The notes under the pieces are model-generated. The model was not told the DNA's origin and did no database searches. It was given only the letters and a program-made list of their open reading frames with translations. A stretch of DNA of 64,000 bases from Tubiluchus corallicola (Eukaryota > Priapulida > Priapulimorpha > Priapulimorphida > Tubiluchidae). Both the position numbers and the translations under genes were made by a program. Shown piece after piece: positions 20,852 to 64,000 of the stretch; positions within the stretch are counted from its first letter, which is position 1, and every line of letters starts with the position of its first letter. The stretch spans positions 456,007 to 520,006 of the forward strand of contig JAQGDQ010000138.1 in assembly GCA_030141605.1 (NCBI GenBank), in the 5' to 3' direction.

Positions 20852-23800
20852 ATGGCGAACTTTGTGTTGAAGTTTTGTTTAATCCACGTGTGCTTTGTTA
20901 ATTTAATCTTGGGATTACCCGAGCAAGGATTATACTCACAAGAATTCTCATATGATCCTACTAAGGAAGAAGAAACATTTACAAATTTTCCATACATTCA
21001 CATGTCGAAGAGCATGTACAAAAACTCAGAAGTTTTTCTCACAGGTATAATCTTCAGTTATTACCGATATTGTTATGCAGTAGTAAACAGTAATTATACA
21101 TTCGCCTTACCCGAACGTATAATTATTGGTTGAGGCCAATAGAAAACTGTTTGAGATGGTGGAAGGTGAGTTTCGGGTTCGATTATTCAATCGTAATCAT
21201 CTTTGTAGTACTCATTCTTGCAGCTACTTTGACTCCTGTTATGGGTTTAATTTTGGTAGCCTTGTGTGTAAGGAATCCTGCACTGGGTTACATCATGCGC
21301 TCACATCCTATAGTACTTTTTATGGCGCTTGCACTTTAACTATAATCACTATAATGATATGATATATTATAATAAAACACTTTAACTTATAGTTTTACAA
21401 ATGTTGTACCTGTGAAATCAAATGACAGTGTGACACTGTTTCACTTCTTTCATCTCTTTAGTCCTGCCTCATTTTGGTAATCAATACCGGATTTAGTATA
21501 TTCTGATATTCTCTGTCTCTTCCAATTCTGTGCCATATACCCTCGTCCCCCCCCCCCCCCACTCAGTTTATTAACACACACAGCTAGCTTAAACGTACAT
21601 ATTCAAACAAATGTTGAACAGGGCAGTTGTATATATAGATCTAAGTTTGAACTGTTCTCTGTGCTAATATGATTGTGTAGCCAGGCTTTTCTTAGTATGT
21701 AAAAGTATTTAAAGATGAGAAATCAGATCCTTCGAATTACCATGTCATTGGTTTGCAGCCGCATCATCAGTAGAGTCTACTAAGTGTTTTATTTAACATT
21801 TCCCTTGCTTTGTACAATGCAGTATGTTTCTTAGCTGATAGTGACATAAATTCTATAAGATATATGAATTATAGCTTTGCCTATTATTGCTCCACTGCTG
21901 TTGTGTGCTGCCTTTATCTTTGGAAGTACCTTATAAACTTCAATTGTAAAGTATAAGTGGAAGTACACCGTCTAGGTCTATTATTTTGCTGCATTTTGAA
22001 GGCTGTAAAGTTTTTGTGTAGTGTGTTAAACCTACATTGACAGTAGTGATATTTGCTAGCAGAGCTGATATTGCATGTGTGAATATCTCAAGTTTTGGAA
22101 AAAGTAGTTTGTATTAGACACTGCTGCATATATACACTGATATAATTTGCTATGCTGAGTTGACCCTAACTGCACGCTTAGTCACTCACTTTCTTCTCTA
22201 CGCTTGGTTCCCAATAACTTAATTATGGATTTCCTTTTTTGAGACAATGAGACACATGTTAAGAGCGAGATATATGCAAGTGACAATGAAACCAGTTTGC
22301 AGTGTAGGACTAGCGCATTGTTATCTTGCAGAGATATGAAAATTGTGAATGCTATGATTCACCTTCCCTTATTTTCATTTTTAAGAATTAGAAGTGGTCA
22401 GAAGCATTATTAGAAGTGGTTGTAATGAGCTTTTTGAGTGCCCAATGTCAGTTATTTTTTAAGACGATGCTGAATGTTTGTTAAATTTTAACGTCGATAT
22501 TTAACAGTTTATAATTTTACCAGTATAAATTGAAATTTGAACTTCCTATGACTAAATTTGTTCAGAATAAGTTATCATTTAATAAACTCTCAGTCAAGTT
22601 GTAACTTTTTATAACTTTTCAAGTCAAATGTAAATGTGTTCGTGACAACAAATGTGATATAAGTTATTGAAATATAACAACACAAAGTTTGGTCATTCAA
22701 ATGCAGCAGCAAAGCATGCATATGTGAACAATAATCACCTAAGGTGTGTTTTGGTCTTCCAATTGTGAATTTGTGACCAAAAACAAAATCGAGATTGCAC
22801 TCTAACTTTGTGTTTTATAAAATAAGTACAGTCTTTCTAGTGTAAGTTACAGTACTTGTACTTTTTTGAAAATTGATTGCTTTAATAGTTTTTTATATTT
22901 ATAATAGACATGAAAAAGAAAATTCAATTAAATCAGTTCTTAAAGTGTAACGTAAATTTAGCCATAAATATTTTCACTTATAGCACATGATTTTATAGTG
23001 ATCAGTTAATTTTTGTGTGAAGTAATCATAGGTGTGTTTTGACATTAGATGTTGTAATAATTTGTGTTGAGTTTTTTTAAGCAGTTAAATAAACTTGGTC
23101 AGATCAGAGCATTTGCAGACTGTTAATTATCTGGATTTGCGTGCTTTGTGGATCACTTGAAACTGATTTTGAACTACAAACATGAGTAACTTTCATGTAT
23201 GTTTAGACACTGGTAATATTTATTAATTGCTTTTCTATTTCAGTTCACTGTGATTCAGAGACAAATGATGTACCTATATTGATGAACATAGGATGGACCA
23301 TGAGACAAACACCATGTGCACAAGAATATGTCAACATTAGCCCAGACATGCTGAAAAATTATTATGATGATCCAACCTCAATTACAGCTGAATATGATAA
23401 TTATGTGATAAATTATACTTCTAAGTGTGCTGACAAATGGAACTGTGAGGATGGGGATGTTAGTCTGTTATTGGAAAACAATGAGTGGCTTACCTTCACT
23501 GCTCCACTACAAACAAATGAAATCAACGAAGAAGAAAAGGCGATAGATGAAGAAAAAGCAGATGTGAAGGAAGTCACTGACATTAAAGCAGATGCTGATA
23601 ATACTAAGAACAAAGAAAGTGTTGAAGAAAAATCAACCCGCAAGAAAAGAAACATTTGGGATTTGAGTCGCACAAGGCAAAAACGTGCTCAATTTGAGTC
23701 ACCACTCGATGATAAGTCTTCAGAAAATGGTGTTGATGCGCTCAAACAACGCCAAGGTGATAATAAGAATACACCTGAGGTATCCGATGGGGTAGTACCA

Positions 23801-25102
23801 CCAAGTGAAGATAAGAATACACCTAAGGGATCCGATGAGGTACAACCATCAAGTGATGATAAAAATACACCCAAAGCATCCAGTGATAAGTCTCAATCTA
23901 AAACTGATGAAACTGCTAAGGCTAAAAAGGCAATTACAAGAGTTCCATTAGACGGGGTGTATCTGTTTGTCCTGAAAGTGGAACCAATCAACAATAAATC
24001 CAAATCTGATGTTAAATTTAATTTTACCATCACAATAAAACTGAAAGGCGAATATGGATATTTGTCTGCAATTGACTGGCCACTCCTGCCATTTTATGGA
24101 GCTCTTTGCATTGTTTATGCCATTTACGCCATTGTATGGTTAGTGATCAGCGCCTGGCAATGGAGGGATTTGCTACGTGTACAGTTCTGGATTGGTGGAG
24201 TAATTGCATTAGGTTTACTAGAGAAGGCTGTATTTTATGCAGAATACAGTAACATAAACAGTCGTGGGTACTCTATATATGGCGCTGTTGTATTTGCCGA
24301 GTTGATATCTGTACTGAAGCGCACGTTATCTAGGATGCTAGTCATCATCGTCTGCCTAGGCTTTGGAATTGTAAAACCTAGGCTGGGGCAAATGCTTCAC
24401 AGAGTACTTGGTGTTGGAGGCCTTTACTTTGTTCTTGCTTCCATAGAAGGATGCATGCGAGCTGTAAAACCTCGTCTAGATATGTCCAGTGGAATTATGC
24501 TTGCAGTGATTCCTCTGTCTGTTGTAGATGCTGGTATTTGCTGGTGGGTGTTTAGTAGTTTAGTGCAGACAATGAGAACACTCCGTCTTCGCAGGAATGT
24601 TGTAAAGCTGTCACTTTACAGACACTTCACGAATGCTTTGGTTTTTTGCGTTCTCGCATCAGTCGTTTTTATGGTGTGGTCAATCAAGACCCACAGATTT
24701 ACCGAGTGTTTAGATGACTGGAAAGAATTGTGGATTGATGATGCTTTCTGGCCTTTGCTATTCACAATCATTTTGCTTATAATAATGATTTTGTGGCGGC
24801 CTACAGCTAACAACACACGATATGCGTTTACTCCCCTCTTAGACCAAGCTGACGAAGAGTCTGAGGAGCCGATGCTAAATGATGCATTTGATGGTATGAA
24901 GCTTCGTGGCCAAGGTCAGAGTCCTAATGGTAATCCACCTAGGAAGCCGTATCACGATGATGTACGAGATAAAGTAGAAGACGATCTGAAATGGGTAGAT
25001 GAAAATATTCCATCTAGTGTAGTAGATGCTGCAATACCAACATTCGTAGATTCCGATGAAGAAATAATGACAACAAAATTTGAAATGTCTAAAATGGATT
25101 AG
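20852..25102 (+). CDS. TMEM87A: TMEM87 Golgi GOLD-domain seven-pass membrane protein (2 exons)
   Basis: Golgi multi-pass protein of the GOLD-seven-helix group, linked to retrograde endosome-to-Golgi transport; ion-channel roles are debated. Exon 1, 20852-21044, gives a signal peptide (residues 1 to about 20) and the start of the luminal domain. Exon 2, 23244-25102, holds everything else. The phase-1 join is consistent, giving 683 residues against about 555 in human. The excess is an acidic, Lys-rich insert at about residues 156-296 with tandem DKNTPK repeats. It carries basic clusters RKKR (197-200) and RQKR (209-212). The seven-helix block starts near 344. Diagnostic blocks include WRDLLRVQFWIG, LEKAVFYAEY, GIVKPRLG and NVVKLSLYRHFTN. 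The cytosolic tail has EEPMLNDAFDGMK and ends DLKWVDENIPSS then DSDEE, all as in vertebrates. It converges on VHL. Confidence 0.95.
21045..23243 (+). other. TMEM87 intron 1
   Basis: A 2.2-kb GT-AG intron. It holds a small open frame with two hydrophobic stretches followed by AATAAA (see 21224-21339) and a C-homopolymer near 21547. Otherwise it is unremarkable AT-rich sequence. Confidence 0.8.
21224..21339 (+). CDS. possible alternative terminal exon of TMEM87
   Basis: A good acceptor (TTCTTGCAG) ends at 21223. Spliced from exon 1 (phase 1) it continues in frame for 38 residues, largely hydrophobic, to a TAA at 21337-21339. AATAAA follows at 21371-21376. The same frame extends upstream to an ATG at 21130, giving a 68-codon frame with one strong hydrophobic segment. 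This would make a short, truncated product with the signal peptide. It is inferred only from splice phase and a nearby polyA signal; chance is quite possible. Confidence 0.25.
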
Positions 25103-41879: not shown

Positions 41880-42577
41880 TTGGTTGTATCCGAGTTTACT
41901 GTTTACATTTACATCAACAGAGATGGGTTATATCCGAGATTTGTGTTTACGTTTACCACAAGATTCAACAAGGATTGGTTATATCCGAGTTTGGTGTTTG
42001 CATTTAACACAGGATTCAATAAGATTGGTTATATCCGAAAATGGTGTCAACATTTACCACAGGATTCAATAACGATTCGTTATATCCGAGAATGGTGTCA
42101 ACATGTACCACAGGATTCAATAAAGATTCGTTATATCCGAGAATGGTGTCAACATTTAACACAGGCTTCAATAAAGATTGGTTATATCCGAGTTTGGTGT
42201 TTGCATTTAACACAGGATTCAATAAAGATTGGTTATATCCGAGGATGGTGTCAACATTTAACACAGGATTCAATAAAGGTTGGTTATATCCGAGTTTGGT
42301 GTATGCATTTACTACAGGATTCAATAAAGATTTGTTATCTCCGAGAATGGTGTCAACATTTAACACAGGATTCAATAAAGATTGGTTATATCCGAGAATG
42401 GTGTCAACATTTACCACAGGATTCAATAAAGATTCGTTATATCCGAGGATGGTGTCAACATTTAACACAGGATTCAATAAAGATTGGTTATATCCGGGTG
42501 TGGTGTCAACATTTAACACAGGATTAAATAAAGATTGGTTATATCCGAGAATGGTGTCAACATTCAATACAGATTGA
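41880..42577. repeat. 51-bp minisatellite (about 13 units)
   Basis: Units begin TTATATCCGAGAATGGTGTC and carry CACAGGATTCAATAAAGATT, with period 51. As 51 is divisible by three and the unit lacks stops in several frames, long frames stay open on both strands: about 220 and 178 codons on +, 183 on -. They encode 17-residue repeats. Two unit types alternate irregularly (GTGTCAACATTTA versus GTGTTTGCATTTA). The first two units are diverged. No start context, splice context or unique flanking coding sequence supports a gene. Confidence 0.95.
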
Positions 42578-44876
42578 TGCCATTCATGTTCGGCTATTTG
42601 CGTTTATTATTCATATTTATAATTTGTTTTATTGTATTTTCCTAGATTTTGGTTTAAATCTGACTTCTGAGAGATTTCAGTTACCCGTGTAACAATGTAC
42701 ATTTTGTTAAACATGCAACTGATTCGCTTTTTCATTGATGGGGGAATTTAAAAATGCACTGCATTAAAGATGAATAGTTACTATTTAGATATTTTTTTGT
42801 TTTTCTGTATCTGTTCTTGTTTCTTTCACTTGATGGTAATGCACGGTGGGACAGTGAATCTTTTCTGTTTCTTCTTTTTCTCTCCCCCCTCCCCGCCCAA
42901 TGGAAATAAAAGCAATGGAAAACGACATCTGCAAGTTTTGTTATTTCGCATAATCACTGACAACGGTTAGGTCTTTTAAATAAATAATGTAAATTATCTT
43001 AACAACGCTTTTAGTCTATTTTCCTTTAGCAAACGTTTCTGCCATTGTATTACACTGTCATTGACGTACTTTCTTTTAGTTATTTCTACGCTTCCTAACC
43101 TTGCTGTGAAGTCAAGTGTTCACTGTTCTTGGTTTTATTTATATCCTTATTGATATTTTGTCAATAGAATGATTTTACTGTTGTATCACGTAAAAAGCAG
43201 AGAGTAGCAGAAATTTGTAGTTTCTGCATCATTTTTATTGCGTGATTCGATGGCCTGACGAAAACTGCAGTGAGCAATTGAATGTTTGCTACGGTGGAAA
43301 CTTGGCTAGAGGAAATGCAGCCATGATTGCTGAAGCTACCAAACTATAAGCAAAAGGAATTATACTAAATTCCCACAATGCCACTGCTTTATGTGAACTA
43401 CGTTAAGTGATATGTTGCATGCCAGCTTTCATTAGAAATGAAAATAGACAATGATTGAAAATTCGTGTATACCCAAATGAGATAACATGCTATTATGGCA
43501 CAGTGTGTTAATCTAACATTAGAAGTATAAATTGAAGCACTTATTTTATTACTTAGCTTGGCATGCTAGCATTAAATGGATGCTGGCAAGAGGGATAAAA
43601 TATCATAAACAGAATAGCACCGTTGTGCAGACAACAAGACATGGCTCCGAAACGTTGCTTGCTTTGATTTCATCTGTTAATTTAAGCAAAAGAGTGTCTA
43701 ACTGTGGACAGCGAATCCTGTGAGCTGATGTACTTTAACTGTTGTTTAATTGATTGATCGCCAAATGATCAATCGATTGGGTATTTAATCACTTGCTACC
43801 GGAAATTAAGTATTTAGCTAGATGGTCGCCTTCAGTTGCAAATTCGCAGTGAATCAGCTTGTTCGTTCAATTTTGACATTCATTTCTTCTGAGAAAGCAG
43901 AAATCACCAAGTACAAAGGAAAATGAACATACAACAGCAACATGTTTTATCCAATTAGGCAACGTAGCATCATGAAACAACCTAGCAATATTTGGTGAGC
44001 TACCTAAACCACACAAAAAGTACGGAAATCAGTCACGTAAATTTCTGTGGCGCCCTCTGCTCTTGAGAAATGCGTTATTATGCGTCATAAGGTTTCATTA
44101 ATAAGAAACAGGGCAGGATTGAGAATTTGTGTAAAGCTGAATGAGATCATTGATTATAGTGGGATTTTGAGAAGTGCAATGGGCATTTCATTTCACGTAA
44201 TCCCTGGAGAAATGTAATACCCGTATAGTATGGTTGTTAAATAGCAATCACGGATATAATATTGAAATCGTGATAGGCTAGACGATTGGAGTTGACAGGG
44301 TGACTGAATCTGTGCCATTCGGCGTGCAGAAATGTTAGCTTGCAGGCAGATCCATTTGTTTTACTATTTATGTTTAATTTTGTATTATAACTTTGGTGTA
44401 TTATAAAATGGTGCTCAACTCATTATGATGGCATAAACAAGCATCTTTGTATAGACTGCAGGATATGGCTTCAGTGGTGTTGTCACATGTTAGGCAAAGT
44501 ACATTGATGAGGCAGCCAAGCGGGAACTGAGACAATTTTTACCTCTAATCGCAAGAGTTTATTTATATGTTAGAACTGACTGGATGATCACCTTTAATCA
44601 CTTTCTTATATTTCTTGAGAGTTTTTACCTGGTAGGCAACCGAACTGATAGCCTATTAGTTACTCTGTCGTTTCCTTCTTTCTGACTCAGTGAAAGCAAT
44701 TACAACAATTGATAGTCGGTTATGGTCAGTTGTTATCTGCCAACTTGACTTGATCGAAATATAGCTACTCTAAACGACATTCACTTAATTCTGCACACCT
44801 TCAATCAAAAAAGTATTTTGCCCCATTTGGACGTGCCTTACCTTGAATATATAGAAAGCATCAACTGCAAAAGAAA
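42578..44876. other. intergenic upstream of GPCR, nothing recognised
   Basis: AT-rich, with no repeat family or exon identified. TATATAG at about 44848, some 30 bp before the GPCR start codon, could be a TATA-like element or simply 5' UTR. Confidence 0.5.
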
Positions 44877-45875
44877 ATGAATAACACAACAGTGACAGTC
44901 GATGATTTTCCGCAGTTCGTCGTAGGAGTCTTGGGTTTTGAGGCAGTCGCTGTGATTGTGGCCAATGGAGTGGTCATTTTTGTCATTTACAAATCAATAA
45001 ATCTGAGAAGTGTGACATATTTCTTCATCGCAAACCTGTCCACGGCTGATGCTTTCTTTGGCACTACTGTACTGTTTCAGGTCTTTGTTTATCAACTGCG
45101 CCTGCAGAACACTTGGCACTGGTGCAAGATCACAGCGGCACTGATTATGATCGGCAACCAAGTCGCAATTTACTCCTACTTCTTTCTTTCTATCGAGAGG
45201 TATCTCGCTGTGTTTTATCCACTTAGGCATGGGGTCATTATGACAACCAGAATCATCTGGTGTTTCATCGTTGCTGGTTGGATGGTGGGTTTTGTTTTTG
45301 CCATACTTACAAGTGTGACGTACGATGAGGCATCGCTCAGGAGACATTGCTTGACGTTGGGTGGAGCAATGGCAACCTGGTGGTGGACTGTGCTCATGTT
45401 TATCAACTTCTTAGTATTCATTTTTGTGGTTTTTCTCTATTTATGTATAGCCAAGGAAACAATGCGCCACCTTAGAAGAATTCACACGCCACGTGTTAAT
45501 ATAAAATTAAATGTGATAAGCCCTTTTAAAAGCCATGAAACCACATCAATAATGACTCGCAAGCAACAGTCAGCAAATGTGCAACAAGAAAATAACAACT
45601 TCATGAAGAGTACGCTCAGGATGATGAAGACGTTGCTTCTCGTTCTGGGAATTTTCTTTGTCCTGTGGCTGCCATGGGTAGTCTGTGTACTAGTGGTTGC
45701 CTTTTGTCCATCATCAGTTTGTGTGAACATGAAGCCGGATAGTTATGTATTTCTGTATGTGGGCTCTGTCGGACTAAGTAACTGTTTTTTTAATGTGTTC
45801 ATCTATGCTGCCCGAATCAAGGAATTTAGAAATGCCATCAAGAAGACATTCTGCTGCTTCTCTGAAACTGCATAG
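44877..45875 (+). CDS. rhodopsin-like (class A) G protein-coupled receptor, single exon
   Basis: Plasma-membrane seven-helix receptor, 332 residues, intronless. Helices lie at about 14-38, 47-71, 83-109, 125-147, 168-192, 250-275 and 288-311. Conserved positions: N30 (1.50), D58 (2.50) and the disulphide pair C83/C158. ERY at 107-109 replaces DRY, W135 is 4.50, and LWLP at 263-266 stands where CWxP is usual. N305-VFIY replaces NPxxY. The short N-terminus has an NNTT glycosylation site, and CC at 326-327 is a likely palmitoylation site. A short N-terminus without peptide-receptor features and the PLRH after ERY suggest an amine/adenosine/lipid-type relative, but the ligand cannot be named. The start is chosen as the only Met before helix 1. 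It appears intact. Confidence 0.93.
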   Translation: MNNTTVTVDDFPQFVVGVLGFEAVAVIVANGVVIFVIYKSINLRSVTYFFIANLSTADAFFGTTVLFQVFVYQLRLQNTWHWCKITAALIMIGNQVAIYSYFFLSIERYLAVFYPLRHGVIMTTRIIWCFIVAGWMVGFVFAILTSVTYDEASLRRHCLTLGGAMATWWWTVLMFINFLVFIFVVFLYLCIAKETMRHLRRIHTPRVNIKLNVISPFKSHETTSIMTRKQQSANVQQENNNFMKSTLRMMKTLLLVLGIFFVLWLPWVVCVLVVAFCPSSVCVNMKPDSYVFLYVGSVGLSNCFFNVFIYAARIKEFRNAIKKTFCCFSETA

Positions 45876-50520: not shown

Positions 50521-51388
50521 TTCGAATCCAGTTTTAAATATTTTCGAATAAATTTTTGAATTACTAATGAAAGTAGTCTCATAAAGATCATGCATATTAC
50601 TTAATTTTGTACTGCGGTAAAAACGCTAATAATTTGTTTAAAATTGTACACACAAATCGCTGCCAAATTGTGTTATTTCAAACGTTTTACTGATATTGAA
50701 TGTATGTGGTTGAAGTTCAGAATTTTTCTAATCTAAAATTTTAGTGTTTGCAACGAATTCGATCTGAAAAAATTCTGAATTTGATCAAGTTGATTTGTAA
50801 TGTTTCTAATAAAGTTTTATGTATTACCAGTTTAAGAAAGGGAAAGGAAAGACACTTGAGAAGGGGTATAATTGCATGAATTTTAAGAAAAAAAATGCGA
50901 TAATAAAATTTTGTCATAGAAACTCTTGAAACTAAGGTAATTTATTAAATTATACATGTTTTCTAAATTATACCTTCCTTCCAAATTTGACGACGAGTAA
51001 AACTTTTTGGAAACATTTGTTAACACGGTGTTTTACCTCTTTGTAATTGTGGCTGTTAGCTTTCATTGTTTAAGATCAAAATTTGCTGCCTGTGTTTTCA
51101 GGACAAAAATTTGTTTCGCAATTTGTGTCTAAGCACATTCTTTAAAATGAAATGACCTGCTATATTGATGTAGGTGAAACACCTGTATGTTCTTCTGAAG
51201 CGCTCAAGTGCAATTTTAATAGCTCTTTTGGATCGCACTGATAGCAAGCATAGTAATTTGGCTGTTAGTAGTGGAGCTTACAAATCTCTTTCTTCAGGCG
51301 ATTAAAACCTGTTGGCCACTTACTTAGAACTGGTGTGTTAATTATTCCTAGTCCTTTACCTTTTTTCAGTAGCTGTACAAGAACGAAC

Positions 51389-51887
51389 ATGAACGTTTTA
51401 TTGCGTTTTATCTGCTTGGCGACAGTATGTTCAACTTGGTGTAGTACAGTACTAAGTATTGGTGAAGGCGATAGCGTTCTAACGGCTCTGAAATTTGTTT
51501 CTGAAATCAGGAAAAATGTTGAAAAATGTGACCCTGGTACAGGGCTAGTGCTTCCATTCTTTTACACGAGTCACGTCTGGAAGGAACAAGCTTCTATCGC
51601 CATTCATACAGCAAACCTGTTAGGTCAACTTCTACCACAAGGTGGAGACCAACTTGACGAAGAGTTGACTGATTTGTTATACACATTTGTGACAAATAAT
51701 GTAAAAAGTGATGATTACGTGTTTGGAGCAGTTCTTGCGTTCGAGCCAAGTTATTTAAGTCCACCGAGAAGTAAATTTGCACCGTACGCTTTTATGCAAC
51801 GAAATGGGACTGTAGGATATAAAGATTTGTCGGTTTTCTATGATTATGTGAACACAGAGACAGAATGGTATGCAGACGCCCTTCAAT
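51389..51887 (+). CDS. alternative first exon A of the GPR158-like receptor
   Basis: The start ATG at 51389 is chosen because it directly precedes a good signal peptide (residues 1 to about 25); an in-frame ATG at 51335 would add 18 residues before it. It encodes 166 residues plus one base and ends at CAAT|GTAAGT (phase 1). Cache-domain blocks: LPFFYTSHVWKEQA, LVTNNVKSDD-type (here FVTNNVKSDD), KFAPYAFMQRNGT and DLSVFYDYV. It can splice in frame to 54640, giving Gln-Tyr-Ala at the join. It is homologous to exon B, roughly 60-65% identical by eye over the conserved 110 residues. Confidence 0.85.
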
Positions 51888-54800
51888 GTAAGTAATGCAC
51901 ACATACTCGCACACCATCACTCAAGCACGTATGCAAACCTTCCTTTCAGAACCTTTTTAGAACCTTCCTTTAGTGTATTATAGTCAGTTGGTTTCCTGAG
52001 CTAGATCTGAAGAGTCAAGTGCCTCTGTGGGCGTAGTTACTCAGAGTTAACTCATAGTGAGCATCTTGAATTCACGTCCCAGTTTAGGTGTTTATAGTGT
52101 TTTGTACTATATAAAACAGATACGACAAAGTATTGTGTTACATAATTAAACCTTTGCCATCTCGAATGTCTGGTACTATGTCAGTGGAGACATCATCCAT
52201 ACACCGACACCAATGAAGTTGAGGCTACTAAGCAAGATAGTAAATTAGAAAGTCTACAAAATATTGCACCTAAATGAGGATGTCTATTTCGTCGTAATGC
52301 CGGCGTCATTCTTTAGCCACTTTTTATATTGTGACTCAACAATAGAATTACTTTGTATTCTAAATTTTTATGAAAAAACGGATCCTTGGCAACGGAAAAT
52401 GGTATACTAAATAACATGTCCAGGTAGTTGGGCAAAAAACTCATTAAGCAAGTCTGAATGCTTTGCCTTTTGTACTAGTTTATATACTGTCACGTTAAAT
52501 TTCTAATTTCTGAGCCAACTTAATATTTGTATATTTTTTAAATGTTTCTTTCATAATGTGAGCCTGCTTTGCATAATACAATATATTGCAGAATAACGAT
52601 ATGCGTTTATGGATTTCAAGAACTATAATGGGAAATGTGATTATATAAACATAAAGCGTCAAAGCATTTTATGTCTTAAGAATACTTTATGTATTCAATG
52701 TGACTGAAACTGGAAATTTGATACAAAAATACACTGTACCAAGTGTCTTAGCAAACAGTGCGAAGTTACATGGATAAAATTTCCAGGGCTCAGCTTAAAA
52801 TTTGCAAACAATAGTAACAGTATGAGTTGGCCAACAGGCGGGCTTATCCGGCTGGGCACACCACACAAATCTATACAATTATTGCAACAAGTCAAATTGA
52901 AATCATGTTCGTTTTTTAAGGATGTCCGCTTCAGTAGAACTATAGAATAGATCAGTCAAAGTAAACTAAAAAGAACTGCGATTGTTTGTATTGGAAGCTG
53001 TAATTCCACGATGTCAATATTGAATGTTACTTGGGGCTATTAAAACCAGTTAGCTGTTCGAGCACTTTGACATTAAGAAAAATCTATAATTTTCTCCTGT
53101 CCTGCCAATCGCGAATGTGTGATTTTGCAACTAACATGAGAGTCATAAATTATTTTGCTGTTTCTGTAACAACGTACTTGGTTTTATGTGGTGCAGCGTC
53201 GAGTATACCTGTAGAAGGCGATGCTGTGGAAAAGGCTTTAGAACTCGTTTTTAAGATCAGAGAAAATTTTGACAACTGCGTTCACGCTGACGAAGCACTG
53301 ACTCTTCCATTCTTTTATACCAGTCATGTGTGGAAAAAGCAAGCCTACAGCGCCATTTCTGTTGTTAACCTGCTAAGTCAAATTCTTCCTTTTGATGCGA
53401 TTCAGCCTGACGAAACGTTTGATGATTTGCTATACGCACTAGTAACAAATAATGTGAAAAGTGATGACCACGTGTTTGGGTCGGCTATTGCGTTTAAACC
53501 AAAGTATTTGCATCTCTCTAGGTCTCAGTTTGCACCCTACGCTTTTGTACTACCAAATGGTACGATAAATTTTAAAGATCTATCGCTTTTTTATGATTAC
53601 GTGGACTTGAAACCTGAATGGTATGCAAATGCCCTCCAATGTAAGTGTTTTTCACTAATAAGCGCATACTGCTCTGTCAGAATTTATTGCCATATAAAAT
53701 AATTTTTGGCTTTCTTTTTTGACAATAAATTAGCTATGGGGTAGTAAACCGATTCTGAAATTTCAGAATCATTTATTACACCCGACAAACTCAAATCATT
53801 TTAACACTACTGAGTCGTTGAAAACTGTAATGGTTGATACATGTGCAATTGTGCTTTCTCTACAATACTTAAAAAGAAAGAGCAAACCATTTTATTTCAT
53901 GCATTGCAATTTTTAACAGAGCATTTAATTAAATAATTACGTTGATAATGACACATTTTGCATATTCCACTAATTGAACTGAACTGAATTGAATTGAATT
54001 GAATTATTTTGCGTCATACATAAAAAAACTACAAGAAAAGTTAACATGAGATTGCATAATTAGTAAGAGGGACGGGGTGGAGAAAGACCAGACGGTCACC
54101 GAGCATCCACCCCTCACTCATAAAATCTTAATTAGTAACACAATGGCAGAGTTTGGAATGAGCAGGGCATTAGTGTGCAGTTTTCAAAAATAAAAATAAA
54201 TAAACATAGAATGGAAAACTAATATACGTGTACACAAACTCAAATGCGGGGATATTAGAAGTGATTTTCCCAGAGAGCATAAACAGTAGAAAGATTACGT
54301 TATTCACGTGAACATAACCACTTTAGGGGCGAAGATATTTGGCTGAAAACGGAAATGAAAGCCAAAAAACATAACCAGTGGAAGCTATTTTTCTACAAAA
54401 ATGTTGAAGAAACACTCATTTGTTATAGCTTCAAGAACTTTATAGACAAATGATAGTAAGGCTAATAAAGAGTTATATAAAGGATATGTTTGTGAGATGA
54501 ACGCATAATTTCCAAAAAGACCACACAAACATGCATTAATTATGTAACATGCACTATACGTGCTACCAATCATTAATCATTATTTGTCATGACATTCGCA
54601 CTTCCATAAAAATTACTACTAGAGTTACTTTGTTTCCAGATGCGAATGATAGAAGCAGAGAAACACACAAAGTAGCGACGAAAGGTGGTGTGGTGACATG
54701 CCCTATTGTAACGTACGATGATGGTTATTGGTCTCACCCTTATTTTGACTGTGGAGGAGGGGACATATGGATGGTAACATACTCTGTACCTTTCTACAGA

Positions 54801-57800
54801 TGTGACAATGGTTCTGCTGCAAGGTCCATTGATTTTCAACCATTGTAAGTTTTGCAGAGTGAGTTTTTCTTGTGCAGGCGGTGTTTACCACGAATGCTGT
54901 GTTTTCCTGATGATCCATTAGCTTAGTAGCTCATTCGGTTTCTTGGGCGCCTTTGCCACCGACCGTACATATCTAAATATCTTCATCTCTAGACTCGGAT
55001 TCTTCGAAACTGTGCAACTTAGCGCGCTTAAGAGTGCATTTAAGCCGTTTATAATAGTGTTTTAGAATTATTTATCACTTGTTAGCACTGTTTAACACTC
55101 CAATATAAAAATAAAAAATAATAAGTGGTTACCATGACCTACTGCATAAGATAAAGACATTTTACCAACATAAATTGTAAAGATTTACAGCGTCAGCCAG
55201 AAAAATCATTATCTGAAATTCTTTAATAAAACAAAAATTACAAGTCAAAAAGGCATTAAAAAATTAAGACAATATAACAAGAAAAATTTAGTCGTAAATT
55301 TATTTTATTTCTGTTGAACTTTTAAAAATGTGATGTATAAAATTCTCTTTCCATCATAAAAAGGGATTTCTTTCCAAAATTTATTGTTTTAAATGAAAAT
55401 GAAGCCCATTTATAATATTTTCTTTATCTACATAATTTATAAAGTTGTACTGTTTGCTTTCCCTTTTATTTTTGCCTCTTTGCGAAGCCTAGGTCGGAAC
55501 TGATTATTAATTGAATTAATCTCATTTTGAGGAAATATGTCCTCGCTGAGCTAAGTTTCCATGTGCTGAAATCTAAAGCATCTACGTCGGAGCTGTTCTG
55601 TAAGTTATATTTTTTTATTTAGTGAAGTGAGTTTTTTTTATTTAAAACGGACAAATTAAAAAAATTATTTTTCTTTGTTATGGAAATACAATTTTGAACA
55701 TCACATTTTTAAAAAATTCAACAAAAATAAAAGATAAAACTTACAACTATTTTTCGTGTGTATAAAATATACACATATTCGCCGTTATTCTGTTAAATTT
55801 GTACGCGTTTTTGATTTGTAATTTTTGCATGTAGTGTTTTTGGACGACACTGCATACGTCATGAATTTCCTGTATCAAAGTACGATAAAGAATCATAAAC
55901 GGCATTGGTTATATATGAAGTATGATGCTGATTATGATGAGACAGATGATGATGATGATGATGGTGGTGTGGTGTTGATGATATTGATGATGATGATGGT
56001 AATGATGATGTTGATGTTGATAATGATGATGGTGCTGCTGCTGCTGATGATGATAACGATGATTTGTAACGGCGATGACGATAGACATAATTTCACAGAT
56101 ATAGCTCTAACAACTTTTCCGTTCGTCACGACTCGTACACCAAACTAAAAACTCATCTGGGTCTAATATCTTCACAGTGATTGTCTAGTTTTGACTCATT
56201 TGGATTTCATGGAAGGACGGTGGTTTCTTTCAGCCACAATAACAGTTTTTTTCATAAGCCAACAGGAATTCCAGAAAAGGATAAACATGCTTCTGGAAGA
56301 GGAAAGGAACAGCCTAGAAAGCGCAGGAAATATTATATAAAAATCGTGAACGAAAGTGAACGAAATGCGACAATTGTATTAAGTATAAATGAGACCCATG
56401 TCGAGGATTACTTCAAGGTCACAAAGTGAATCTTCATAATAAAATAACCAAACTCAATAGTAGCTGCAGTTTGGTCACCAGAGCTTCCAGTTATTATATT
56501 ATTATACAGGGGCATCGCAACTATTGACGTTGAACTCGATTCACTTGACATAAACCAATGTCCTGCAACTCCAGAAGAACAAAAATTTGCAGAGAAAGAA
56601 AAAGACAGAAATCCATTTCGAGGGACTGATCGTTGCGATCCAGAAAGTACCAAGGTACAAAAAGTTCAATGCCGACATTTACAAAAAATGAAAAACAAAT
56701 GTTGTATGAGTAGTAATAAATAGAAGGAAAAAAATTAGGCCTCACTCAGTTGAACGTTAGAATCCTTAAATGTTCTAAAGCTAGCTTCGTTTAATTTTTG
56801 TCTGGAGATATGTTGTATGCCGATTAATAAGCAAATAAATGCGAGACTTTTATTGGAATAATGTGATTAATAAGATATGCGTGTTTGTTGATCGGATTCA
56901 GATATTTTTGTGCAAAGCACCCAACCACATATTGTTATAATACAACAGTATTATAAAGCAGTTTTGATTTAATTAATTAGTGTGTCTTTGCTGCCGGAAA
57001 AGGATTCCAGCGTGGTGGTTACCATTGCGCCTGCAAAGATGGTTTCTATTATAAAGGACAACCCCAGTTCACAGGATTCGACGGAGAAGACGTTGAAGAA
57101 GCTTTTGCAAACGAACAGGCGGGACTGCCAAATGTTTACAGCAGCTTAAAATGCACCAAATGTCAACCGGGCTGTGACTCATGCGTTGATGACACTCCAT
57201 GCATATTAAACATCCGTAAGAGTTTAACTATTGGGTTTTTAGTGATCATTGGATTAAGCTTTGTCTTGGCTCTGACTTTTCTGGGGATTTTCTGGATTGG
57301 AAGCGGGAATATGGTTAGTATAATTTTATATCTATTTTGGGTAATAAATTACTTAAGTGTGCTCTCGTTTCTTCCAGCTAAAACGGAGAGCTGTAATAGA
57401 TCTAAAATTACTGCCTAGGACGAAAGGTTAATGCATTTCACCAGTCACAACTGGAAAAAGGTCTTTCTATGTCTTTCTTCTGGAAAAAGACATTTTTCAG
57501 CGATCACCAGTTACAACAGATAAATAAAAGTCATTAGCGTGTATCAGCCAAACCTTTCTTCTAATAATATGAAAAGTAAACGTAAGGATAATTCAGTACT
57601 TCATTTTTATGTATTTTGCGTACATGTAGGCTGTAAAAACATCTTCAATGGTGCTGATACTTCTTGTGACGCTTGGAATTTGCATGATGTTGTCTGAAGT
57701 AATTGTTGTCAGTTTTAAGCCAAAGCAACCGCTGTGTCATCTCGGTGTTTGGCTATTCGTTATTGGGTTTCTGCTTGCTTACAGTTCCCTGACTATGATG

Positions 57801-57808
57801 GCAGTGAG
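51389..57808 (+). CDS. GPR158/GPR179-like class C receptor (5' half; Cache, stalk, TM1-3)
   Basis: Orphan class C receptor family with an extracellular Cache domain; the mammalian member GPR158 is reported as a glycine receptor. Common exons: 54640-54844 (ANDRSRETH, then PYFDCGGGDIWMVTYSVPF), 56510-56654 (GIATIDVELDSLDINQCP) and 56981-57313. The last is a Cys-rich EGF-like stalk (GFQRGGYHCACKDGFY), then KCTKCQPGCDSCVDD, then TM1. Exon 57630-57808 gives TM2-TM3. These follow either of two first exons (51389-51887 or 53136-53640). Phases 1, 2, 0 and 0 agree at all joins, and the last exon ends in phase 2. TM4-TM7 and the cytoplasmic tail were not found downstream to 64000. The gene either continues past the window through a long repeat-filled intron or is truncated. 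Ligand cannot be inferred. Confidence 0.9.
51888..53135. other. spacer between the two alternative first exons
   Basis: About 1.25 kb, presumed to contain the promoter of exon B. No copy of the downstream exons (second Cache part, stalk, TM) lies here, so exon A has no private downstream gene body. Confidence 0.7.
53136..53640 (+). CDS. alternative first exon B of the GPR158-like receptor
   Basis: ATG at 53136 starts a signal peptide (residues 1 to about 25). A frame-continuous ATG at 53031 would add 35 residues before it and is less likely. It encodes 168 residues plus one base and ends at CAAT|GTAAGT in the same phase as exon A. Conserved blocks: LPFFYTSHVWKKQA, LVTNNVKSDD, QFAPYAFVLPNGT, DLSLFYDYV and EWYANALQ. 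The variable positions cluster at the middle (Q-D-E-rich in A, FDAIQPDETF in B) and after the NGT sequon. Being nearer to the common exons, B could use the 54640 acceptor by default. Confidence 0.88.
53641..54639 (+). other. intron after first exon B
   Basis: GT-AG intron containing a GAATT pentanucleotide run and a LINE-like 3' tail on the minus strand (53960-54130). Otherwise AT-rich. Confidence 0.7.
53960..54130 (-). mobile_element. possible LINE 3' tail with (TTCAA)n, minus strand
   Basis: On the minus strand, a GC-richer stretch (GTGGATGCTCGGTGACCGTC and following) runs into a TTCAATTCAATTCA tail. Short-repeat tails of this kind are common at LINE 3' ends. No coding part remains. Confidence 0.4.
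54845..56509 (+). other. intron of the GPR158-like receptor
   Basis: 1.66-kb GT-AG intron. It contains a GAT-rich microsatellite (55925-56060). The open frame at 56181-56429 is not bordered by usable splice sites in the right phase and is probably chance. Confidence 0.7.
55925..56060. repeat. GAT-rich microsatellite
   Basis: Imperfect GATGAT array with GTG and GCT interruptions. Met/Asp-rich frames over it are artefacts. Confidence 0.95.
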
Positions 57809-58204
57809 GTAAGTGATAAGTTTGAATATAGCAAGATGTTGAAACGGGGATTCTTCATCCTGCTGTAAAACCTTGTCTAAGTGCCCTAAGTAGTTTTAAT
57901 ACCTTGTCCATTTAGTGTTCAAATGTCTTGAATGTTAAATTTCTGTCAAAACAGACAGTTACATAACCTAGTTACATGTAATGCTTTTATGTAGGCGGTT
58001 TGCAATAGACATGCAGGCCAAGAACGTATGAACAAAACACATCGTTGTAAATAAACCCTTATATATAATGCTACAACGGCCATGTCAGGCAGTCAGATTT
58101 TGAAGAGTACAGAGTAGGCCCTACTACACCGCTAAACGTTTATTAAAAGTCACTGCAAAAATTCTCCAGAAGAAAGTTTCAGGTTGATGAATTACACCGT
58201 CTGT
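57809..58204 (+). other. start of the intron after TM3 exon
   Basis: Follows a strong donor (GAG|GTAAGT). No acceptor followed by TM4-like coding sequence was recognised. Confidence 0.5.
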
Positions 58205-58690
58205 GGTTGTTGCTTGCTCGAATGCTGGACAAAACTGCTGGAATATTTGCAAAAATTCGTCACTATTACGCACTGGTATATCCATATCTGCAACGCTGCT
58301 TGTTGGCATGGGAACAAACTAAATTGTTTATATTGCAGCCTTTAATCACCATTCAGAACGAAATTGTTAAAATAATTACATTCGCCAATTTCAGAGCACA
58401 TGCAACTCTTTCTTACAGCCAACTCCAGCTATTAAAACTGGAAGATATTTATAACCTTGAAATGTTTAAATTTACGTATAAATTCCCAAATAATCTTCTG
58501 CCCGAACTTTTCAAAAACTTTTTTACTTATAATGTTCATACTTATTACACAAGGTCTACTAGCAAAGGAATTTTTTTCAAATAACTTAAATAGTCTGCAG
58601 CATAATGGTGCAAAATAATTTACCCTCTGAGCTAAAGTCGTGCACGGTTTTGACTTCAAAAGACTTTAAAAAATATTATTGAATAAGTAC
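58205..58690 (+). mobile_element. decayed LINE 3' end, plus strand
   Basis: The frame at 58207-58584 carries the post-RT signature: IQNEIVKIITFANFRAHATL, then LKLEDIYNLEMFKFTYK, then NVHTYYTRSTSKGIFFK. It continues after a frame change into a NNLPSELKSC-type block near 58620. This is typical of non-LTR ORF2 C-termini. Degenerate, and inserted downstream of the receptor exons. Confidence 0.75.
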
Positions 58691-60216
58691 TCTCTCTCAA
58701 TCTATCAACAAATGTTAACATAGCAATACGTAACTGAACGAAGTACAATGTGGAAGTTACGTATTGCTACACATATACGTATAAGCCGATGCAACGTTAT
58801 TTAATTAGTTAATGAATTTTACTACTAATATATACATTTATATACATACATATACATATGTAATTTGTATATATGTAGTTCTTAAATCTTTTGGATGCCA
58901 CCAGAGGTATTGGTACAAGAAAAATTAAAACTACATGAAGACAGTAAAATTTGAGACAGTAAAATTTTAGGCAGTAACATTTTCTAAAATTTACACAAAA
59001 AGCTATCTAGGTCAATAAAAATTTTTCCTGCCAACATATTCAGCATTTAATTACGACTTAACAAAATTGGGAAGTTCGCTGAATTTACAAATGTCACATT
59101 TACACGATACACCAGTCCATGAGTTAATTAGACGTTTAAATGTGAGACACGAATCCGACAAGTAAACAATTCCTAGATCTTAAAGCACAAGAACTAGTTT
59201 ACTCATCTTAAAGCACAAGAACTAGTTTACTCAGGTTCATTTAGCAAACAAAAGTTATTAGATCAAACTCTTAATTTCAATAGGGATTAGTTGGATAACA
59301 AAGTACTGACATTGAAATCTAGTTTCGCTAACATATTTGTGAAAGTCATGTATGAAGTTGTAGTTGAACACTTGTAGAAAACGAATGAACGCTATATTAC
59401 ATATCTGCGCAAAAACTGAAACCGTTTATTAAACTAAATACTTAGTAAAATACACAAGTAAAATGAAGATCACGACTGCTGCACTGCACTCAGAGTGTGA
59501 GTGTTAGACAGCGTGTAGCACGACTGCACTGCACTGAGAGCGTGACAGAGAGTCACATAAGTAAATCGACTGCACGTCACTGAGAGCGTGACAGAGAGAC
59601 AGTGGCTAGAAGTGAAATCCAACCAGTTAATATAGGTAGAGAACTATGCAAAAACTTGGCTTCACATATCCCATTACAGTAAAAATAGGGGAGATCCAGT
59701 GAGTTTGCATATTCACTGCACCGAGCAATTGTACTAAGGGTGAGTTTAACTAGTAAATGTAAAGGGACTAATCAATAGATGGCAGCACCTAAAATATACA
59801 GTTACAACAGTTCACAATATTGTTTAATAAGGTTTAGTCATTCATTTAATTGTTTGTTCATTCTTTGACTCTTTGCATCGTTCAAAAAGTATTTTATTTA
59901 TATTAATAACAAAATTATCGATTTAATTATTAATTCGTTTGCAGTACAATCGGGAATTTGCTTTGATCACATCAGTAAATGCTTAAAGTTCAATATCTTT
60001 AAGTTTAACGTAAGTGTAAAATGAAGTTGCGTTCTCTGATTCGTAGATAAATCTCTGCTGTTCGATTTATAATTTCCGGTTTGATTTTATTTCTTAGTGA
60101 GAATTTTTACTTATTACAGGTTAAACAAATCAAAGCCAAATAATCTGGCCCACACCACTATCTCGCTGTTAACAATGTAGTTTTCAAAAAGATGCAACCT
60201 TTCTTCACTACTCATC
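58691..60216. other. repeat-rich spacer
   Basis: Contains a 15-bp perfect inverted repeat (58721-58735 / 58755-58769), a 28-bp tandem duplication (about 59177-59232) and a short tandem array built on ACTGCACTGAGAGCGTGACAG (59475-59605). No exon is recognised. Confidence 0.55.
59475..59605. repeat. short tandem array, ACTGAGAGCGTGACAGAGAG motif
   Basis: Three irregular units of 40-50 bp with a shared ACTGCACTGCACTGAGAG core, partly diverged. Confidence 0.65.
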
Positions 60217-60271
60217 AATGGTTTGCTGATGTTGTTATATTTAAATACGTTAACAACATCAGCAAACCATT
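60217..60271. repeat. perfect 21-bp inverted repeat
   Basis: AATGGTTTGCTGATGTTGTTA at 60217-60237 is exactly the reverse complement of 60251-60271, with a 13-bp spacer. It sits at the 5' edge of the LINE fragment that follows and may be a fold-back made during insertion. Confidence 0.95.
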
Positions 60272-60551
60272 CCAGAATAACAGATTTACCTTTTTTCCAA
60301 ATCCTATCGTTAATTCCAGAACAAGCAATCTAAAACAAATTAGGACAAATACCCACTATGGAAGGAACTCTGTAATCAAACAAGCAATTCTACTTTGGAA
60401 TTCTCTACCATTACAGGTTAAACAAATCAAGTCCCTATCAGCATTTAAAACAAAATTAAAATCACTAATATTAACCAGATATGAAATACCATCACACCAG
60501 TACAACAACATACACACTAATTCAGAATTCATATATCCACGGCCATATTAA
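60250..60551 (+). mobile_element. LINE ORF2 C-terminus, plus strand
   Basis: Open frame to TAA at 60551 with the signature THYGRNSVIKQAILLWNSLP, then VKQIKSLSAFKTKLKSLIL. This is the very C-terminal block of a non-LTR ORF2. It is uninterrupted, so younger than the other LINE fragments here. It is truncated at its 5' end near the palindrome. Confidence 0.8.
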
Positions 60552-60847: not shown

Positions 60848-60930
<83 letters not shown>

Positions 60931-60932
60931 GG
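60848..60932. repeat. (TTG)n trinucleotide array
   Basis: About 28 perfect TTG units (AAC on the minus strand). It could be the 3' tail of the minus-strand 5S-headed element that ends here, or an independent microsatellite. Confidence 0.98.
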
Positions 60933-61039: not shown

Positions 61040-61617
61040 TTTCGTAAAAAACAGTTTGTCACAGATAGATACTTGTTGGCATCCTTCTGTCTCGGAAGAC
61101 AAAGGAGTGTGCGCCAAGAGAGTCAGTTATTGATCACATTGATGGAGCTGCAGCTTCGACTGTGGCTGAGCAGTCCGATCCTTGAACGTCTCCAGGGCGC
61201 ACGCCTGGGCAAGGTGTATGGAGATCCCGAGTTGTCCAGACAACAGGAACCCCCTCTCTTCCTCCCTGGTGTAGTCCAAAGGAAAGCGGAGCTATACGTT
61301 TGGCACCAGGTTGGCTGCAGGAGCTGCCGGAGTCAGTGAGCATGCTGCACTGATCTGCCTTCGGGGCTCTACTCCTGATTTGGAAGGTTTACTCCTCTAC
61401 ACATGGCTGTTGGGTCACTTGACCTCCTCCGCCCTCTAACCGTTGGCTGCTTGTGCAGCTCCTCCGCCTAGTGTCGAGATACAGTGTGAGCATCCCGCAA
61501 GCCTACAGCACCTGGTATTCCTAGGTGGTCACCAATCCAAGTACTAACCAGGCTCTAAGTTGCTTGACTTCGGTGATCAGACGAGAACCGGTGTTTTCAA
61601 CGTGATATGGCCGTAGT
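61040..61617 (-). mobile_element. candidate 5S-headed SINE (SINE3-like)
   Basis: On the minus strand a 5S rRNA-like head (61617-61501) runs without a T-stretch terminator into a GC-rich unique body (to about 61040). AT-rich sequence and an AAC array follow (60932-60848). 5S-derived heads define SINE3 elements, and lack of a Pol III terminator after the head fits a SINE rather than a free 5S gene. No second copy exists in this window to prove mobility. Confidence 0.5.
61501..61617 (-). rRNA. 5S rRNA-like sequence (gene copy or SINE head)
   Basis: About 117 nt on the minus strand matching animal 5S rRNA end to end. Blocks: CTACGGCCATATCACG, then ACCGGTTCTCGTCTGATCAC, CGAAGTCAAGCAAC, CCTGGTTAGTACTTGGAT and GGTGCTGTAGGC. 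The box A, intermediate and box C promoter region is recognisable. Substitutions such as GATTGGTGACCACC where GATGGGTGACCGCC is usual look like CpG decay, suggesting a non-functional or SINE-borne copy. Confidence 0.88.
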
Positions 61618-62504
61618 TGATAGAACATTACGTTTTTCAATTCAATATAATTAATTCATGTTACAATCTCAGCTAGATTGTGCACAATCTAAGAGATTCT
61701 GATTCACAATTATTGGGTTACTTTCTTGCGACGTAACTCTTATAAACGGATCTATTTCGCTGTGATGTCGGTTTAGTTCCCGTTCTCGTTCAAGTAATAC
61801 AAAACACCGCCATTTACTCATTGTGAAGTAAAAATATAAAAATACCTACTAAATTTTCAGGAAACTTTAGATCTATGGCAACCATAAACGCTTATGTATA
61901 ATCTGTTAACAGTTAATTTATTGCCATCATATTAGGAGCAGTAAGCAAAGATTGCATAAAATGTTCATGCATTATTTATCATCAGTGTACGATCTATTAG
62001 CGCTTGTTATTTCATGCAGTTTTTGTTGTTTTTGTTGCTGTTATTTTATGGAATGATGTGGGCGGCATCGCGTGGTGTGGGTGATGTTGAGTGAGTGGTG
62101 TGGGGTGGGGTGGGGTGGAGTGAAGTGGGGTTGTTTTTTTAACATCTTGATCTGACAAAAGGACACTGTTACAGAAAAATTGTTGAATGGCTTAAAGCAG
62201 CCGGCAGAAAGGCATCATCCGAAACACAGTCCGAAATGGCATCAAAGTTTGTGCATTTCACAAGCACGTTCGAGCAAAAACGCGAGCGTGCGTGCGTGCG
62301 TGCGTGCGTGCCATTTTTGATCACCTAGTTTTGAAAAGGGGCTGTAACTTGGTTTGCTGAGCAGCCAGGAATGCTTTGTCATAGTAGAACTTCATATCTC
62401 GAAAACGATACGAATCAAGACAAAGAAACTTTGTAGGCGAGTAACCCGATGCTTCACATTCCGGACTAGTTTTTTCAACGCCATCTTTCTTCATGTTTCA
62501 CATA
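61618..62504. other. spacer with simple repeats
   Basis: Holds a G-rich GTGGGGTGGGGTGG stretch (about 62096-62130) that could form a G-quadruplex and a (GTGC)n run (62284-62310). No gene is seen. Confidence 0.55.
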
Positions 62505-63663: not shown

Positions 63664-64000
63664 AACCCTAACCCTAACCCAACGCAAACCCAACCCAAAC
63701 CCTACCCCTACCCCTAGCCCTAACCCTAACCCAACCCGACTCTAACCCTAACCCTAGCCCTACCCCTGACCCTGACCCTCACCCTAACCCTAGCCCTGCC
63801 CCTGACCCTAACCCTAACCCTAACCCTAACCCTAACCCTAGCCCTAACCCAACCTAAACCCTACCGCTAGCCCTAACCCTAACCCAAACCCTACTGCTAG
63901 CCCTAACCCTAACCCAACTCTAACCTAGCCCTAACCCTAGCACAACTCTAACCTAGCCCTAACCCTAACCCAACTCTAACCTAGCCCTAACCCTAGCACA
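63664..64000. repeat. degenerate telomere-like CCCTAA array (interstitial orientation)
   Basis: About 337 bp of CCCTAA units with many variants (CCCTAG, CCCAAC, CCCTAC, CCCTGA), running to the window edge. The C-rich strand is + here. A true right-hand chromosome end would show TTAGGG on +. So, relative to the genes at left, this is an internal telomeric block or the junction with an inverted segment. Confidence 0.95.

Follow-up and report, generated by a model that had tools for sequence, protein, structure and literature searches.

In the multiple-variable-first-exon clusters, vertebrate UGT1 (UGT1A) among them, tandem first exons are followed by a single downstream exon set, and the variable part of UGT1 is described as the part that binds the acceptor substrate (PMC1885805, PMC3325998). 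At the Drosophila Gr39a locus alternative large exons are joined to small conserved ones, and the exons are described as having been duplicated and as having diverged while purifying selection acted on them (PMC2204066). The receptors GPR158 (mGlyR) and GPR179 carry a Cache domain on an EGF-like stalk connected to a class C seven-transmembrane (7TM) part (PMC12716839). Here we analyze a 64,000-nucleotide stretch from the priapulid Tubiluchus corallicola (the window), in which two homologous exons, A and B, precede one set of GPR158/GPR179-like receptor exons, and we argue, by sequence comparison, that A and B are real and probably functional alternative first exons of a single receptor gene.

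Two probable first exons before one set of receptor exons

The window is the final 64 kb of contig C1152 (520006 bases) in an assembly of 343.5 Mb and 2344 contigs. All receptor exons lie on its + strand. Exon A (51389..51887; 499 nucleotides, nt) encodes a possible signal peptide and the N-terminal half of a Cache domain, and exon B (53136..53640; 505 nt) is its homologous alternative. The original prediction had placed both exons exactly, had called them homologous and had both ending in phase 1 on the same donor, CAAT/GTAAGT (the slash marking the exon boundary), in keeping with the acceptor at 54640; each of these points stands. That acceptor, the single phase-compatible one, would serve both donors: whether A or B is joined to exon 2, the frame stays open as far as the phase-2 donor that follows 54844. 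The shared part comprises exon 2 (54640..54844; acceptor TTTCCAG; phase 1 in, 2 out), which encodes the second Cache half; exon 3 (56510..56654; phase 2 in, 0 out), which aligns with human GPR158 and covers the last part of the Cache domain and the transition to the stalk; exon 4 (56981..57313; phase 0 in and out), with the EGF-like stalk and the first transmembrane segment (TM1); and exon 5 (57630..57808; donor GAG/GTAAGT), with TM2-3, the last receptor exon recognized before the contig end. Junction phases along the gene thus run 1, 2, 0, 0, and exon 5 ends in phase 2. With its tandem homologous first exons, compatible donors and one downstream exon set, the locus has the exon arrangement of a multiple-variable-first-exon gene. 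Searching the window by tblastn with A, B and exon 2 (E up to 10) returned neither a third first exon nor a second exon 2, and nothing resembling exon 2 in the interval from A to B, all other matches being at chance level.

When both spliced versions are combined into a profile, its similarity to human GPR158 (E 1.6e-18) and to human GPR179 (E 4.4e-18) spans the stalk, TM1-3 and the second half of the Cache domain; the first half scores about -2.5 bits against the two proteins, which is not significant. The same profile, taken whole, matches the bacterial sensor 3lic (E 3.2e-12), and so do single exons (A, E 4.9e-5; exon 2, E 3.1e-5). Assignment to the Cache domain rests on Pfam MCP-like_PDC_1, which lies above its cut-off in A (E 7.7e-8), B (E 8.6e-7) and exon 2 (E 5.7e-9), and a homologous EGF-like stalk is indicated by the match of the longer exon 4 frame (56981-57418) to human GPR158 (7she; E 3.2e-9). 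Pfam GPR158_179_EC is found just above its cut-off in exon 2 (E 2.7e-6) and below it in exon 4 (20.8 bits against 28.1), while 7tm_3 in exon 5 (E 1.7e-6) reaches 28.4 bits, below the cut-off of 33.5, with TM1-3 aligning with human GPR158. Judged by these matches, the locus is the 5' part of a GPR158/GPR179-like receptor gene.

Both first exons have been under constraint

The proteins encoded by A and B are identical at 91 of 168 aligned columns (54%, E 2e-61) and differ at 77 residues; in the mature part identity rises to 60% over 141 residues. At the DNA level 301 of 433 positions are identical, and the match runs from 51464, in the mature coding part, to the donor GTAAGT. Assembly duplication of one exon, named in the original prediction as an outcome that would undo its reading, can be ruled out, since the two exons have diverged at 30% of their DNA positions and are followed by unrelated introns; a DNA search of the whole assembly with A finds A and B as its only matches.

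The ratio of nonsynonymous to synonymous substitution rates (dN/dS) between A and B, by a Nei-Gojobori count, is 0.26 overall, 0.22 in the mature part and 0.48 in the first 25 residues; four Biopython methods, for which we took the ratios of the printed dN and dS values, give 0.27, 0.39, 0.50 and 0.38 with dS of 0.81-1.26. In a neutral simulation with substitutions only and no indels, frame and start were kept in 7 of 4000 copies at 0.5 changes per site and in 1 of 4000 at 0.6. Together, these results demonstrate constraint on both copies through most of their separate history.

The constraint bears directly on the best of the rival explanations, namely that A is a silent leftover, either of a duplicated promoter and exon 1 or of a whole-gene copy that lost its downstream exons. 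The absence of an exon 2-like remnant between A and B is compatible with such a clean loss, recent loss of use may equally be compatible with past constraint on the two sequences, and the Gr39a report mentions exons of that locus that were lost and pseudogenized (PMC2204066). Yet the frame, ATG and donor of A are intact after dS of 0.8-1.3, and it is not A that has evolved faster. The two exons are neighbors in a tree of six sequences, with branches of 0.28 for A and 0.43 for B, and the outgroup residue is kept 8-11 times by A vs. 5-7 times by B, a difference that is not significant (p 0.48-0.79). A pseudogene reading based on relative rate was set aside, A being the slower copy, though not significantly, and we regard the leftover scenario as a whole as unlikely.

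No close second copy of the shared exons

A search of the assembly with exon A (E up to 10) finds eight places: A, B, four relatives at 29-35% (on contigs C64, C1132, C1027 and C1717) and two weak matches. The search for a second copy of the downstream part covered exons 2, 4 and 5: exon 2 finds 13 places, with the next best at 63%; exon 4 finds 21, with the next best at 46%; and exon 5 finds 12, with the next best at 27% and none but itself above 33%. The original prediction that no second copy of the downstream exons exists between or after A and B stands for exon 2, which has none between A and B or elsewhere in the window, and beyond the contig end it can be checked only in part.

The relatives form part of what appears as a sizeable GPR158-like family across many contigs. 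Each of the four fetched stretches holds one first-exon homolog (E up to 0.1; with 8 kb of further upstream sequence for C1027, 6 kb for C64, 7 kb for C1132 and 1.5 kb for C1717). The three relatives for which both exons are known, C64, C1027 and C1717, likewise have the Cache domain split by an intron, which separates the W[Y/W] motif from the DDGxW motif, a likeness in favor of the gene plan read here. In C1132 the frame is unbroken from an ATG on and has a possible phase-1 donor; the 7 kb that follow yielded no exon 2. C550 (48 kb) carries a relative of exon 4 (46% identity), and neither exon 2 nor exon 5 was recognized within 1.5 kb of it. The first-exon segments of C1027 and C1717 are 91% identical (128/140 residues), as a recent duplicate pair or uncollapsed haplotypes would be.

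This scatter of family pieces over short contigs, such as C550 with its exon 4 relative and C1132 with its first-exon relative and no exon 2, together with the break of our contig 6.2 kb past exon 5, gives some room to a second rival, in which A belongs to another receptor gene whose remaining exons are missing from or misplaced in the assembly. Only 1.2 kb nevertheless separates A from B, which follows it on the + strand, and nothing in that interval resembles exon 2. In the assembly other matches reach at most 63% for exon 2 and 33% for exon 5, and we estimate a second gene to be quite improbable.

Signals around the first exons

A promoter-proximal block before A (51289..51316, + strand) holds TTAAAACCTGTT at 51302, 87 nt upstream of the ATG, and a matching block before B (53027..53054, + strand) holds TTAAAACCAGTT at 53040, 96 nt upstream of its ATG. 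The blocks are identical at 22 of 28 positions and in register, and TTAAAACCNGTT occurs on the + strand of the window only at these two places. For the 140 nt upstream of the two ATGs, the global score is matched by 2 of 1000 shuffles and the local block by 9 of 2000; among 93 real control windows a single one matches the local score, and it overlaps B's own upstream stretch.

Splice sites were ranked by a simple home-made score over 1067 acceptor and 1103 donor candidates. Good acceptors lie 16-19 nt before the ATG of A, at 51370 (rank 9/1067) and 51373 (rank 6/1067), and the best acceptor between 52480 and the ATG of B, at 52921, scores about 0 (rank 76/1067). These scores suggest that B is a true first exon, and that A is either a first exon as well or preceded by a 5' untranslated region (5'UTR) exon.

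The alternative-first-exon reading would work as follows. Each of the two exons would probably have a promoter of its own, from which transcription would start, and the donor of whichever exon is used would be spliced to 54640, the only acceptor of matching phase. Because the sequence immediately preceding the ATG of B offers no good acceptor, A would usually skip B, and the choice between them would be mutually exclusive. Two mRNAs would result, encoding receptors with a common second Cache half, stalk and 7TM part and with different first Cache halves.

The remaining rival, a splice from A in frame into B at 53197 (segment 53197..53640, + strand, acceptor GGTGCAG/CG, phase 1) that would yield a longer receptor with two tandem first Cache halves and one second half, is the least credible of all: although the AG at 53196, at the end of B's leader, is phase-1-compatible and outscores the exon 2 acceptor (rank 28 vs. 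51 of 1067), the product would have an isolated Cache half in front of a complete Cache domain, the corresponding AG of A is weak (rank 149), and B has its own ATG and upstream block.

Several observations weigh against two alternative first exons of one gene. TTAAAACCNGTT was chosen after the alignment of the upstream stretches had been inspected; over 600 nt upstream of A and B, 45 of 300 shuffles are equally alike, which is not significant, and the 1500 nt that precede the C1132 relative contain no TTAAAAC. Before A, the acceptors at 51370 and 51373 would be better explained by a 5'UTR exon further upstream than by a promoter. Downstream, the exon 4 acceptor (rank 338/1067) and the exon 3 donor (rank 145/1103) score weakly. 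In C64, C1027 and C1717 the intron within the Cache domain reads as phase 2, vs. phase 1 here, and an acceptor-like AG stands directly before the mature part, so that the leader of these relatives may sit in a separate exon. As for the leaders of A and B themselves, each had been predicted to be a signal peptide, which remains plausible, but their hydrophobicity is not distinctive: the window has 662 ATG starts that stay open for 25 codons, of which 128 equal or exceed the leader of A in hydrophobicity and 179 that of B. Finally, no later receptor exon was found between exon 5 and the contig end 6.2 kb on, and TM4-7 are thus unseen. The exon 5 donor ranks first among the donor candidates (1/1103), and the gene should therefore continue past it. 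The contig likewise lacks the C-terminal exons, whose product in GPR158/GPR179 receptors couples to RGS7-Gbeta5. Two sources of TM4-7 elsewhere in the assembly were considered and set aside, as neither could be tied to this gene: C1461, the best distant TM6-7 match, inside a 1.57-Mb contig, and C80 (18 kb), which is 76% like C460. A TM6-7 query from the C460 relative finds 34 places in the assembly, with more than 70% identity at seven besides its own.

Consequences for the sensor domain

The glycine contacts of human GPR158, which we take to be S172, R173, Y269, E271 and D307, align with F112 and G113 in the first exon, in a non-significant stretch of the alignment, and with Y201, D203 and D241 in the shared part. 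A and B have the same residues at both first-half positions, and a switch of ligand is thus not evident, as far as these positions and that part of the alignment allow. Two papers give the motif of the amino-acid-binding dCache domain of PctA as Y121, R126, W128, Y129, Y144 and D173 (PMC10104139, PMC11245519). Mapped by spacing, its first four positions fall on Y153, T158, W160 and Y161 in exon A and its last two on Y201 and D241 in the shared exons, indicating a pocket split across variable and shared exons. Exon B matches exon A at these places except for P160 at the R126 place. By the same spacing the carboxylate-binding arginine is replaced in both versions, and the full dCache_1AA motif is not found. 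Known contact positions therefore appear nearly alike in A and B, and most of the 77 differences lie elsewhere.

In human mGlyR, according to a further report, an inhibitory nanobody at the Cache dimer interface contacts residues 140-153, 162, 166 and 195-200 (PMC12834959). As these contacts all fall in the first Cache half, the choice of first exon could alter dimer contacts as well as ligand choice. It is conceivable, if rather doubtful, that this choice swaps a Cache half bearing one pocket wall and the Cache-Cache dimer contacts, giving two receptors whose A/A, B/B or mixed A/B dimers would differ in their ligand responses. The term combinatorial sensor, used in the original prediction, overstates a choice between two alternatives, unless mixed dimers form.

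Other features of the window

Downstream of the receptor exons, a full-length 5S ribosomal RNA match (61500-61618, - strand; 98.8 bits, E 2.5e-20) is either a lone copy or a 5S-derived repeat. A degenerate AACCCT array (63664-63995; 57 copies, 77% matches) lies at the contig end. CCCTAA on the + strand is the wrong orientation for a telomere at a right-hand contig end, and on this rule the array looks internal and may have broken the assembly. The window further contains a perfect (TTG)28 array (60848-60931), a 51-nt minisatellite (41914-42572; 12.9 copies, 87% matches) with open reading frames on both strands, and two open frames (58147-58584 and 60144-60551) that look transposon-like by eye and have no Pfam match. 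Two further frames lie upstream: that at 23207-25102 is of the GOST seven-transmembrane type (GOST_TM E 3.5e-86), and that at 44847-45875 is of the rhodopsin receptor type and on one exon (7tm_1 E 1.7e-33).

Discussion

Constraint on both A and B, the in-register element upstream of each and the absence of a close sister of exons 2, 4 and 5 support one locus with two first exons. The anatomical core of the claim that one gene could make two receptors is thereby upheld; alternative use of the exons is probable, and a change of ligand conceivable.

The ligand of GPR158, glycine, was assigned only recently, and little is established about sensing by related receptors of other animals. Two natural half-sensor versions on one constant transducer would make the locus a ready-made experiment on the residues that set ligand choice and on signaling through the Cache dimer. 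Should transcripts confirm it, class C receptors would be added to the few receptor loci whose diversity stems from a duplicated first exon rather than from a duplicated gene.

The gene plan matches that of vertebrate UGT1 and other multiple-variable-first-exon clusters; here, however, there are two copies only, the protein family is unrelated, and the boundary would cut through one ligand-binding domain. Like Gr39a, this is a chemosensory-type receptor locus with alternative exons on shared ones, but insect Grs are not class C receptors, and whereas the large exons of Gr39a carry most of the receptor, the alternative exon here encodes only about half of the extracellular sensor domain. With GPR158 and GPR179 it shares the plan of Cache domain, EGF-like stalk and class C 7TM part as well as the profile match, though its first Cache half, without a significant match to human GPR158, is nearer to bacterial 3lic. 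The Cache domain recalls the bacterial dCache_1 sensors of amino acids, amines and purines in its Y.....x.WY spacing, with Y201 and D241 of the shared exons at the Y144 and D173 places as mapped by spacing, and departs from the amino-acid sensors among them at the R126 place, which is T158 in A and P160 in B. The titles and abstract openings returned by our literature search contain no report of first-exon duplication in GPR158 or GPR179. The first-exon plan is a known one; what is new, as far as these searches go, is to meet it in a receptor of the GPR158 kind and with a boundary that falls within the sensor domain.
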